Assembly (NCBI GenBank): GCA_030695945.1
Contig: JAUYOG010000023.1
Location: 62,001-126,000, forward strand
Origin: Ramlibacter sp.
GTDB taxonomy: Bacteria; Pseudomonadota; Gammaproteobacteria; Burkholderiales; Burkholderiaceae_C
Reading direction: 5' to 3'
DNA: 64,000 nucleotides
Shown: piece by piece, positions 42,308 to 46,501 of the stretch
How positions within the stretch are numbered: the first letter of the stretch is position 1
How the letters are laid out: every line of letters begins with the position of its first letter
Notes under the pieces: generated by a model
Told to the model about the DNA's origin: nothing
Seen by the model: the letters and a program-made list of their open reading frames with translations, nothing else
The model's database searches: none
Translations under genes and position numbers: made by a program

Positions 42308-42889
42308 GTGACCGCGCGGCGGACAGAACGCATGGCCCGCGACCCGCGCCTTCCGATCGACCCGTCCACCAACCTGCCGAGCATCCACTCGTTCGGCGAG
42401 CTGAGCAACTTCCTGCGCGGCTCCGTCGCCGACGAGGACAGCCGGCATTTTTCGGACAGCATGAGCCAGCTCGCGGTGCACATCGAGGCGATCATCGCGG
42501 GCCTGCGCCTGAACCGCGCGCGCGTCACGGTCGCGCCGATGCTGGTGGACCTGCTCACGGTCGTGCGCGGCCACCGCAACCTCGTCGTCGGGCTGGGGCT
42601 GCCCTGGCGCGGCCTCTATGAATATGCCGCCTACCTGCAGGCGCTGAACAACTTTCGCGTCCTGATCGGCCAGTGGCTGCTGGACGGCGGTCCGCGCAGC
42701 GCGCAGCTGCTGGTCTCTGCCGAGGACTTCGAGCTGGTGGCCTGGCGCACGCTGGGCGAAGGCATGCTGCTGATCGACATGTACGAGCAGTGGGCGGGCA
42801 GCGATCACCCGGAGCAGTCCTCCCTGGCGTCCCTGAGCGAGCCGCAGGTGGAGCGCGCGCTGCAATGGTGGAAGAAGCTGAGGCTGTAG
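42308..42889 (+). CDS. Uncharacterised protein
   Basis: 193-aa ORF; coding-like composition; helical with no recognised catalytic motif; possible later start at 42332. Confidence 0.65.
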   Translation: MTARRTERMARDPRLPIDPSTNLPSIHSFGELSNFLRGSVADEDSRHFSDSMSQLAVHIEAIIAGLRLNRARVTVAPMLVDLLTVVRGHRNLVVGLGLPWRGLYEYAAYLQALNNFRVLIGQWLLDGGPRSAQLLVSAEDFELVAWRTLGEGMLLIDMYEQWAGSDHPEQSSLASLSEPQVERALQWWKKLRL

Positions 42890-42921
42890 GACCTATGCCG
42901 CGTTGTGCTACATTTCCTTCC

Positions 42922-42993
42922 ATGCATACGGTTCGCGCGTATTTTTTTGGCTACTTTTGGCATCTCACGTCCACCGGCGGCAGAGAGATCTGA
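42922..42993 (+). CDS. Putative aromatic amino-acid leader peptide MHTVRAYFFGYFWHLTSTGGREI
   Basis: 23-aa ORF with TAT TTT TTT GGC TAC TTT TGG codon run upstream of a terminator and DAHP synthase. Confidence 0.85.
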   Translation: MHTVRAYFFGYFWHLTSTGGREI

Positions 42994-43055
42994 GCGTACC
43001 CAGCAAAAACGCAACGACCCCCTAGCAAACCGCCGGATCCCGGCGGTTTTTTTTT
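42974..43055 (+). promoter_or_regulatory. Transcription attenuator: antiterminator CCGGCGG (42974-42980) / CCGCCGG (43030-43036) competing with terminator
   Basis: 42974-42980 is identical to the 3' arm of the terminator stem (43040-43046), so both can pair with 43030-43036. Confidence 0.8.
43030..43055 (+). terminator. Rho-independent terminator in aroG leader
   Basis: CCGCCGG-ATC-CCGGCGG stem followed by nine T residues. Confidence 0.93.
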
Positions 43056-43093: not shown

Positions 43094-44218
43094 ATGAATG
43101 CCAAAGCCACGGCCGCCAGCGAAGGCTGGTATGCGCACCCCGTCGACAAGACCAGCGAGACCGACGACGAGCGCATCAAGGACATCACCGTGCTGCCCCC
43201 TCCGGAACACCTGATCCGCTTCTTCCCGATCCACGGGACGGCGGTGGAAGCGCTGATCACCGACACACGCCGCAACATCCACAACATCATGGCCGGCAAG
43301 GACGACCGCCTGCTCGTCGTGATCGGCCCCTGCTCGATCCACGATCCCGGTGCGGCCCTCGACTACGCGCGCCGGCTGAAGGAGGCGCGTGGAAAGTACG
43401 CCGGCACCCTGGAAATCGTGATGCGGGTCTATTTCGAGAAGCCGCGCACGACCGTCGGCTGGAAGGGCCTGATCAACGACCCCTACCTCGACGAGAGCTA
43501 CCGCATCGACGAGGGCTTGCGCATCGCGCGGCAGCTGCTGATCGAGATCAACCGCCTGGGCCTGCCGGCCGGCAGCGAGTTCCTGGACGTCATCTCGCCG
43601 CAGTACATCGGCGACCTGATCTCCTGGGGCGCGATCGGCGCGCGCACGACGGAAAGCCAGGTGCACCGGGAGCTTGCGTCGGGCCTCTCGGCGCCGATCG
43701 GCTTCAAGAACGGCACCGACGGCAACATCCGGATCGCCACGGATGCGATCCAGGCGGCCGCCCGCGGGCACCATTTCCTGTCCGTGCACAAGAACGGCCA
43801 GGTGGCGATCGTGCAGACCAACGGCAACAAGGACTGCCACGTGATCCTGCGCGGGGGCAGGGCGCCCAACTACGACTTCGCCAGCGTGGCGGCGGCCTGC
43901 AAGGACCTGGAAGCGGCCAGGCTGCCGCAGACGCTGATGGTCGATTGCAGCCATGCCAACAGCAGCAAGCAGCACGACAGGCAGGTGGACGTGGCGCGGG
44001 ATATCGCCGGCCAGGTCGCCAGGGGGTCGCACTGCGTTTTCGGCGTGATGGTGGAAAGCCACCTGAACGCCGGCGCCCAGAAGTTCACGCCCGGCAAGGA
44101 CGATCCGGCCGCGCTGGACTACGGCAAGAGCATCACGGATGCCTGCCTGGGCTGGGGCGAGTCGCTCCAGGTGCTCGACCTCTTGTCCGATGCCGTCAAG
44201 GCACGCCGTCTCCTCTAA
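43094..44218 (+). CDS. aroG: 3-deoxy-7-phosphoheptulonate (DAHP) synthase, class I
   Basis: VVIGPCSIHDPGAALDYARRL, MRVYFEKPRTTVGWKGLINDP, GARTTESQVHRELASGL, MVDCSHANSSKQ. Confidence 0.96.
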   Translation: MNAKATAASEGWYAHPVDKTSETDDERIKDITVLPPPEHLIRFFPIHGTAVEALITDTRRNIHNIMAGKDDRLLVVIGPCSIHDPGAALDYARRLKEARGKYAGTLEIVMRVYFEKPRTTVGWKGLINDPYLDESYRIDEGLRIARQLLIEINRLGLPAGSEFLDVISPQYIGDLISWGAIGARTTESQVHRELASGLSAPIGFKNGTDGNIRIATDAIQAAARGHHFLSVHKNGQVAIVQTNGNKDCHVILRGGRAPNYDFASVAAACKDLEAARLPQTLMVDCSHANSSKQHDRQVDVARDIAGQVARGSHCVFGVMVESHLNAGAQKFTPGKDDPAALDYGKSITDACLGWGESLQVLDLLSDAVKARRLL

Positions 44219-44309: not shown

Positions 44310-45323
44310 ATGACCATTGAACATCCTGTGCTGCGCCTGGGCCTCGCCGGTTTCTCGGCACGGGAGCAGGACGAGATCAGGGCGGCCGTTCCGGCCGTCG
44401 CCCCGGGAGTGCCGTGGGTGCTGGCCGAACTCGGCGACGCCGATGCATGGTGGGTGAATGGCTCGCGACTGCGCATGCTGGACGAGGCGACGGTCAAGGT
44501 CGCCGCTGCGGAGGCGACGGCCCGATCCCTGCGCCTGCGGTTGCCCGACATCGACCGGCCGGTGGCGTTCACGCTGCCGCTCTCCTGCGAGGGGTTGCCG
44601 CCCGCGTACACCCTGGACGTCGCGTCGGGCGACAGCATGGCGGCTGTTCTCGGCAAGTTCGAGGACTGGCTGTCGCCCCTGACGGCGCAGTTGTGCCTGG
44701 CCTCGCACATCGTCGAGCACCAGGCCGCGCTGGGCAGCGGCATCTTCGAGGTGAGGCTGGACGGGCGGCTCCTCGCGGTGGTCGACATGCATGGCGAGGC
44801 CGGCGTGCTGCCCGGCACCGGGCCGGCGGATTTCGAGGATGCCGAATGGCGGCGGCGGGCCTCGCGCCACGTGCCCGAGGACCTCGCGCACGCCAGCATG
44901 TCGCAGCTGATGTGGCAATACAGCGTCCGCACCCAGCGGGACTTGCTCCCGCGCCATTACCGCACGGGCTTGCTCTATTTCCGGCGTCCGCCGCGGCTGC
45001 CGAACCGCCTCCTGCGCGACTCCCACCTGTTGCTGATGCGCGAGCTGGCGGGCGGGCCGGCGAGCTTCCAGGCGCTGCAGCGCGCTACCGGCCTGCACCC
45101 CGCCCGGCTTGCCCAGGACCTGGCCGCCCTGTATTTCGTCGGAACGATCACCTCGAACCCGAAGCGGGCGCCCCTGTACCAGCTGCCCCGCGCCGACCAC
45201 GTCGACCTGGCCACTGCGCACAGCAGCCTGCCTTCGGGCCTGGACTCCGGACTGCCGCGAGAGGACGGTCGCGCAGCCAGCCGGTCCGACTTGACGGCGC
45301 CGGCACCCCTTGAACGGCATTAG
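44310..45323 (+). CDS. Uncharacterised protein, tandem paralog 1 (receiver-like N-terminus, HTH-like C-terminus)
   Basis: Shares DADAWWVNG, DRPVAFTLPL, LLPRHYRTGLLYFRR, LLRDSHLLLMREL and C-terminal SDLTAPAPLERH with the next ORF. Confidence 0.8.
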   Translation: MTIEHPVLRLGLAGFSAREQDEIRAAVPAVAPGVPWVLAELGDADAWWVNGSRLRMLDEATVKVAAAEATARSLRLRLPDIDRPVAFTLPLSCEGLPPAYTLDVASGDSMAAVLGKFEDWLSPLTAQLCLASHIVEHQAALGSGIFEVRLDGRLLAVVDMHGEAGVLPGTGPADFEDAEWRRRASRHVPEDLAHASMSQLMWQYSVRTQRDLLPRHYRTGLLYFRRPPRLPNRLLRDSHLLLMRELAGGPASFQALQRATGLHPARLAQDLAALYFVGTITSNPKRAPLYQLPRADHVDLATAHSSLPSGLDSGLPREDGRAASRSDLTAPAPLERH

Positions 45324-45442: not shown

Positions 45443-46501
45443 GTGAGAGAAGAAAAGACAGCCGGCGCAGCTGTGGAGCAGCCGATCCTCTGGCTTGGCA
45501 TGGCGGGCTTCGCTCCGCAGGAGCGGACCGTGCTCGAGGCTTCGCTGGACCGCTACGGCGGCCTGCCGCGCTGGCGTCCCAGCGCGTTCGGGGATGCCGA
45601 CGCCTGGTGGGTGAACGGCGCCAAGGTGCGGCCGACACCGGAAGGCAACCTGAAGGTCTCGCCCGGGATGCCCACCGAGCACACGCTGAACCTCAACCCC
45701 AGCGAAGTCGACCGGCCGATCGCCTTCGCCTTGCCGCTGGTCGGTGACGACTTCGAGCCGAGGTATACCTTCGACCCCGTGTCGCAGCCCAGCATCGACG
45801 GCGTGCTGTCGCAGTTCGACCATTGGCTCTGGCTTGTCCGCGCGCAATTCGTGCTGGGGGCGCAGATCATCGACCGCGCCACGACGCTGCGCCGCGACGT
45901 TTATCACGTGGGCCACGCCGGCAGGCTGCTTGCGGTGCTCGATTTTCACCACGGCAAGGCGGCGCTCGCGCCACGCGCGCATCCTGTCGACCTCTGGCAG
46001 GCCCAATGGCTCAAGCGTCCGATCGGGGCCCATGGCCTGCCCGAAAGTTTCGTGCCGATGACGCCTGCGCACCTGACCTGGACGTACGTGCGGCGCACGG
46101 ATCGCAACATGCTGCCCGAGCGCTACCGCACGCAGACGATCTACTACCGCCATGTTCCGGGCGTTCCCCTGTGGTGGCTGCGGGACTCGCAGCTCATGCT
46201 GCTGCGGGAGCTCTCGGCCGAGCCCGGGACCATCGAGGCACTGCGACAGCGCACCGGCTTGCCGCTCGGGACCATCGAGCACGACCTGAGTTGCCTCTAT
46301 TACGCCTACGCCATCACGACCACCCGGGAGAAGGCTGCGGCGCCAGTTGCCTCGCCGCACGAACGCCAGGCGCCTTCTTCCCAATCGATGATGGATTCGG
46401 TGTTCAGCAACCAGTCGCGCCCGTCGCAGCCGCATCGCGACCTGACGGCGCCCGCGCTGCTGGAACGACGGAAGCCCGCCGACCCGGACCCGGCGGACTA
46501 G
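45443..46501 (+). CDS. Uncharacterised protein, tandem paralog 2
   Basis: Shares DADAWWVNG, DRPIAFALPL, MLPERYRTQTIYYRH, WLRDSQLMLLREL and C-terminal RDLTAPALLERR with the previous ORF. Confidence 0.8.
   Translation: MREEKTAGAAVEQPILWLGMAGFAPQERTVLEASLDRYGGLPRWRPSAFGDADAWWVNGAKVRPTPEGNLKVSPGMPTEHTLNLNPSEVDRPIAFALPLVGDDFEPRYTFDPVSQPSIDGVLSQFDHWLWLVRAQFVLGAQIIDRATTLRRDVYHVGHAGRLLAVLDFHHGKAALAPRAHPVDLWQAQWLKRPIGAHGLPESFVPMTPAHLTWTYVRRTDRNMLPERYRTQTIYYRHVPGVPLWWLRDSQLMLLRELSAEPGTIEALRQRTGLPLGTIEHDLSCLYYAYAITTTREKAAAPVASPHERQAPSSQSMMDSVFSNQSRPSQPHRDLTAPALLERRKPADPDPAD

Follow-up and report, generated by a model that had tools for sequence, protein, structure and literature searches.

A ribosome-mediated transcription attenuator of the trp/pheA type very probably controls the DAHP synthase gene in the Ramlibacter sp. 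DNA analysed here (64,000 nucleotides, referred to as the window; positions are counted from its first letter and all parts of the attenuator lie on the + strand). This attenuation logic had been proposed by the first-pass annotation, made from the window alone, and it is supported by the conservation of the element, by paired base changes in its helices and by folding with an occluding ribosome. Most likely, the cell makes more DAHP synthase when Phe, and probably Tyr and Trp, are in short supply.

Anatomy of the probable attenuator

The predicted leader peptide ORF (42922-42993) extends from an ATG at 42922 to a TGA at 42991-42993, with 23 codons that would yield MHTVRAYFFGYFWHLTSTGGREI. It holds 2 Tyr, 3 Phe and 1 Trp, and the putative sensor codons TAT TTT TTT GGC TAC TTT TGG (Tyr, Phe, Phe, Gly, Tyr, Phe, Trp) occupy 42940-42960. 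Four RNA segments can be distinguished. Segment 1, the protector arm (42940-42966), emerges from folding of 42922-43037 and of 42940-43020. Segment 2 (CCGGCGG, 42974-42980) is the 5′ arm of the antiterminator and lies within the leader ORF, as seen in the sequence and in the counts of 2:3 pairs. Segment 3 (CCGCCGG, 43030-43036) is common to the antiterminator, formed with segment 2, and to the terminator, formed with segment 4 (CCGGCGG, 43040-43046), which is followed by the T9 tail (43047-43055). The intrinsic terminator as a whole, AAACCGCCGG-ATC-CCGGCGGTTT plus T9 (43027-43055), is recognized by a terminator scan, by folding and by its conservation in relatives; the scan gives a 10-bp stem at 43027-43049 with the loop ATC. 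The presumed target gene (43094-44218, 374 aa) codes for a DAHP synthase of class I (aroFGH family), its product matching TIGR00034 at 527 bits (cut-off 173) as well as Pfam DAHP_synth_1, in agreement with the initial assignment. All coordinates given earlier for the leader ORF, the two copies of CCGGCGG, CCGCCGG and T9 are exact. The identical 7-base arms, taken at first for the entire design, are present and turn out to be the core of a longer conserved one.

Among all ORFs of 8-50 codons in the 64 kb window, the leader ORF is the only one with at least 6 aromatic residues in 8 codons, and no short ORF that rich in aromatics (at least 6 in 8) occurs in 15 random windows generated with a Markov-1 model; it is therefore not a product of chance. 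The attenuator region also folds more stably than shuffled sequences (z = -2.25). Thus, a run of end-product codons, an intrinsic terminator and an exclusive antiterminator arm within the leader, all expected of a ribosome-mediated attenuator, are found together at the locus; a further expected property, the freeing of this arm by a stalled ribosome and its masking by one at the stop codon, comes from folding only. Just 3′ of the leader stop (42994-42997 with 43009-43012 in the window), some relatives have GCGT..ACGC and others ACGT..ACGT, which suggests a small additional covarying hairpin inside the antiterminator loop.

Predicted leader peptide and sensor codons in relatives

By its nearest named relatives, the genome is a Ramlibacter-like member of the Comamonadaceae. 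The leader is found in 108 of 111 DAHP synthase loci of the genome's own family, that is in 108 of 108 assessable ones: two of the three loci without it (L026 and L058) are cut by contig ends, and the third (L002) is the second DAHP synthase of the genome. The 108 loci, drawn from two overlapping collections, do not represent 108 species; they contain 105 distinct leader regions. Both alternative arms are located in 107 of the 108 leaders. The aromatic run is conserved in 108 of 108 assessable orthologues of the family, where a typical leader reads MxSxRFYFxYFWFSxxxGGREI. When more distant lineages are included, conservation of the leader ORF, of its aromatic run and of the alternative pairing extends to >150 relatives, and the conservation on which the first-pass annotation made its reading depend is thus found, including the ability of both CCGGCGG copies to pair with 43030-43036.

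The residues are not conserved to the same extent. Phe codons are present in every leader of every lineage, and Tyr in 85-100% of distinct leaders depending on the group. For Trp, the share of distinct leaders is 93% in the own family, only 39% in the remaining Burkholderiales, and again 93% in the gamma families other than these; outside the class it reaches 100%. Phe, Tyr and Trp are combined in 92% of the distinct leaders of the own family, in 93% of those from the other families of the class and in 100% of those from outside it, and f13 has leaders such as MSKPAASFFFFGFFLPLAEG, with Phe as the only aromatic. The idea that one leader senses all three end products is therefore secured only in part, Phe codons being universal and Tyr codons nearly so, while Trp is missing from many Burkholderiales leaders; judged by codon content, sensing of the three amino acids together is plausible, and only that of Phe can be considered secure.

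Codon choice is also biased. TTT accounts for 65% of leader Phe codons versus 21% in the downstream genes and is more frequent in the leader in 97 of 105 sequences, an excess that fits slow decoding or a need for unstructured RNA. In family leaders L003-L111, the codon 5′ of Trp is TTT in 88 of 95 cases and the codon 3′ of Trp is TTC in 78 of 95, apparently a site-specific choice between synonymous codons.

Pairing and covariation of the arms

Among the leaders, 95 carry the GGCGG of segment 2 in frame 0, where it encodes Gly-Gly, while 52 carry it in frame 2 (as in PLAEG) and 7 in frame 1 (as in HRRR); since it occurs in all three frames, the RNA and not the peptide is conserved at this position. 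Bases 3′ of the arm are conserved as well, and in the Acidovorax group the GAGAGG that follows the arm falls past the stop codon yet is conserved.

Within the family the 7-bp core is too invariant for informative covariation, and an order-wide set of sequences was for this reason needed. Next to the core, 26 sequences of the order-wide alignment have U-A and 23 have C-G in the 2:3 helix; in the 3:4 helix, A-U occurs in 38 sequences and G-C in 29. Cells with double changes, whose counts can be inflated by relatedness of the sequences, number 26 in the antiterminator (12.3 in shuffles) and 36 in the terminator (13.6 in shuffles), and neither value is reached in any of 500 shuffles. The true pairing is kept in 91% (antiterminator) and 97% (terminator) of cases, compared with 17-57% and 19-60%, respectively, for slid structures. 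The compensatory changes that had been looked to as a check of the proposal are thus found in both helices. Covariation of the 1:2 protector pairing was sought in the family and gave no signal.

In the window, pairing beyond the 7-bp core is weak (-1.2 kcal/mol). Over the family, covariation of a GAGAG:CUCUC extension is modest: the extension is favoured over swapped partners when these are exchanged across sequences (4/10000), but is not significant when sequence classes are permuted (1132/10000); this pairing likely extends the antiterminator.

Folding with a ribosome in silico

The ribosome was assumed to cover 13 nt 3′ of the first A-site base, and the remaining RNA was folded up to segment 3. 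In the window, the antiterminator forms with a probability of 1.00 wherever the A site lies between the Tyr codon at 42940 and the Trp codon at 42958, both included, so that stalling at Tyr or Trp codons frees segment 2 no less than stalling at Phe codons. The value remains 1.00 at His (42961), drops to 0.00 at Leu (42964) and stays there through the stop. Both predictions made at the outset, namely that a stalled ribosome frees 42974-42980 and that a ribosome at the stop codon masks it, are thus reproduced in silico. Without a ribosome the probability is 0.00, because segment 1 then covers segment 2 and the bases after it.

The antiterminator hairpin has a folding energy of -19.5 kcal/mol and the terminator one of -16.2. 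In the full transcript at equilibrium the terminator is always preferred; the switch must therefore be kinetic and decided before segment 4 emerges.

The same behaviour extends to the relatives. In 158 of 164 of them, the permissive stretch ends no more than one codon away from the final aromatic codon, and at the stop codon the probability of the antiterminator is 0 in all 164. The ribosome-free RNA gives values below 0.5 in 69% of family members and in 51% of the remaining relatives, and this state of termination is not equally convincing in all of them.

Predicted promoter and leaderless start

An extended -10 element, TGC-TACATT (42906-42914), has its final base 7 nt 5′ of the leader ATG; transcription is therefore expected to start at about 42921. 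The leader ATG should thus lie at about +1 of a leaderless mRNA, a feature absent from the first-pass annotation. That annotation regarded a start downstream of 42922 as incompatible with the attenuator; the best promoter match would instead put the start at the leader ATG. All 108 family relatives have an extended -10 (TGn-TACATT or near) that ends 6-10 nt, mostly 6-8, 5′ of the ATG. A promoter score of at least 6 is reached at this site in 99% of the family versus 0% at upstream control positions, and none of 105 family sequences has an SD-like sequence. Elsewhere, the same score is reached in 88% of other gamma loci, in 32% of other Burkholderiales and in none of the loci outside the class. 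On these promoter matches, a start at the leader ATG appears well supported in the genome's own family and likely in f63.

In four loci of one family outside the class (L247 and L249-L251), two in-frame ATGs (CTATATGA.. and CATGAT..) are candidate leader starts, the first overlapping a -10-like element.

Proposed mode of action and alternative explanations

The following course of events can be proposed. Transcription would start at or next to the leader ATG, as suggested by the promoter, and a ribosome would load on the leaderless transcript. When charged tRNAPhe (or, from the position of the codons, tRNATyr or tRNATrp) is scarce, this ribosome would stall at 42940-42960, covering segment 1 and leaving segment 2 free; segments 2 and 3 would then pair before segment 4 is made and the polymerase would read into the DAHP synthase gene. 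A ribosome that moves past the aromatic codons would cover segment 2, and the 3:4 hairpin would terminate transcription. If the leader is not translated, 1:2 would form, with termination as the outcome too. We infer this response to tRNA charging, and the readthrough that would follow, from the anatomy, conservation and folding described above.

Some observations can be read differently. The gene at 42308-42889 has the same orientation, and 138 nt separate its end from the hairpin, which could thus be a mere 3′ terminator of this gene, with the short ORF being incidental. Such a role is very improbable and was rejected, since the element is always found with DAHP synthase while the gene on its 5′ side changes (the end of tldD in many relatives), and since a plain terminator needs no conserved aromatic run, start codon, promoter spacing or leader arm. 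The stability of the leader RNA relative to shuffles and the conservation of the bases following the arm might, in turn, point to a signal other than tRNA, be it a metabolite or protein that binds the folded leader or Rho- or translation-coupled effects, the peptide being secondary. Against this explanation, which appears highly unlikely, the structure outside the alternative arms is variable whereas the aromatic run and its distance to segment 2 are constant, and no riboswitch or leader family of Rfam matches.

The identity of the amino acids that are sensed is less clear-cut. It is conceivable, though rather doubtful, that the element is a true attenuator sensing essentially Phe alone, the Tyr and Trp codons adding little. 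Phe is indeed in every leader, 61% of the distinct leaders from other Burkholderiales lack Trp, and f13 leaders dispense with both Tyr and Trp; moreover, the aroR leader of Corynebacterium glutamicum (Phe-Tyr-Phe) responds to Phe and not to Tyr (PMC11802643). The co-occurrence of all three residues in at least 92% of distinct leaders, both in the own family and in the other families of the class or beyond it, argues the other way, as does the folding result that a Tyr or Trp stall frees segment 2 as well as a Phe stall. The broader alternative is a leaderless OR gate that would read shortage of Phe, Tyr and Trp at once and thereby set the level of the enzyme through which the whole aromatic pathway is entered. 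Leader and DAHP synthase would form one widespread and hitherto undescribed travelling unit, found throughout Burkholderiales, in further families of the same class and in one or more additional classes of the phylum; taken with all its parts, this reading comes close to being probable but falls somewhat short of it.

Distribution and evolution

A covariance model built from the family (R1) was searched in 300 genomes of the order; its full-length matches with E <1e-4 were all fetched and all lie just upstream of DAHP synthase. With a further model (R2), 400 genomes of the order were searched and 110 of them gave a match at E <= 1e-4. In the class outside the order, R2 matches occur in f63 (15 of 61 genomes) and f68, and outside the class full-length matches occur in three families (f253, f256 and f260). 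Leader, arms and a DAHP synthase gene directly downstream are present in 16 of 16 class loci and 11 of 11 outside-class loci inspected. Weak or partial matches (E about 1e-4 to 1e-2) were dropped, those inspected being mostly terminators without an adjacent DAHP synthase.

In a protein tree of 67 DAHP synthases, midpoint-rooted for drawing only and thus giving no direction of transfer, the sequences from outside the class cluster with those of the other gamma families (100/99), next to the Burkholderiales family f4. Because of this grouping, the leader and the DAHP synthase gene seem to have been inherited or transferred as one unit. The gene content 5′ of the attenuator varies, since tldD directly adjoins the leader in many relatives. 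The second class I DAHP synthase of the genome (L002, G000:C39:56077-57147) is 54% identical, and no aromatic leader is detectable in the 450 bases upstream of it.

Comparison with known systems and significance

The DAHP synthase genes of Escherichia coli are noted for TyrR- and TrpR-mediated repression and not for attenuation. Here, the first committed aromatic step seems to be under translation-sensing control in much of the Burkholderiales and beyond. The nearest functional analogue, likened by design and without claim of homology, is aroR of C. glutamicum, which precedes aroF and encodes a Phe-Tyr-Phe leader with reported ribosome stalling (Neshat et al. 2014, summarised in PMC11802643; see also PMC4046766). 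Both systems have an aromatic leader peptide ahead of DAHP synthase, but aroR is actinobacterial, its aromatic run is short and without Trp, and the reported response is to Phe only. The enterobacterial pheA leader (RF01859, Phe_leader) shares the Phe-rich peptide, the alternative hairpins and the intrinsic terminator but controls pheA rather than DAHP synthase; at the locus its model scores 17.8 bits versus a gathering score of 55 and aligns the terminator and little else. The trp attenuators follow the same leader peptide logic with Trp codons and trp genes, and among them rnTrpL (trpL) of Sinorhizobium meliloti is leaderless too, beginning with the ATG of the leader ORF (PMC7298713).

Two predicted elements also precede DAHP synthase genes. 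In Acholeplasma, the predicted uORFC-13-1 upstream of aroF contains one or more Phe codons and is trailed by a terminator (PMC8632094); compared by description only, it resembles the present element in placing a predicted Phe uORF and a terminator before DAHP synthase, and differs in its restriction to Acholeplasma and environmental sequences, in having an RBS and in that no run of the three aromatics is described. In Vibrio, a prediction database lists an attenuator ahead of the aroAI-tyrA operon (PMC1173090), likewise before a DAHP synthase operon in Proteobacteria, but this operon also holds tyrA and its leader is not described in that source.

Searches of the window and 15 related loci against Rfam release 15, at permissive and gathering thresholds, gave no match beyond chance level or beyond the terminator. 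In the openly readable literature, the element is not described for these lineages, though an earlier prediction may exist. The kind of attenuator is itself known from trp/pheA and from C. glutamicum aroR, and what no Rfam family covers is the attenuator of DAHP synthase. With this element it can be tested whether a single leader integrates three end products and how attenuation works on a leaderless mRNA, and it should be of direct use for annotation and for engineering aromatic production in bacteria that carry it.

Neighbouring genes in the window

Searches of Pfam and NCBIfam gave no match for the 193-aa ORF at 42308-42889, which lies between tldD and the attenuator, nor for the ORF at 44310-45323. 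The latter and the adjacent ORF at 45443-46501, both on the + strand, begin alike (VLRLGLAGFSAREQ.. and ILWLGMAGFAPQERTV..) and look like tandem paralogues.
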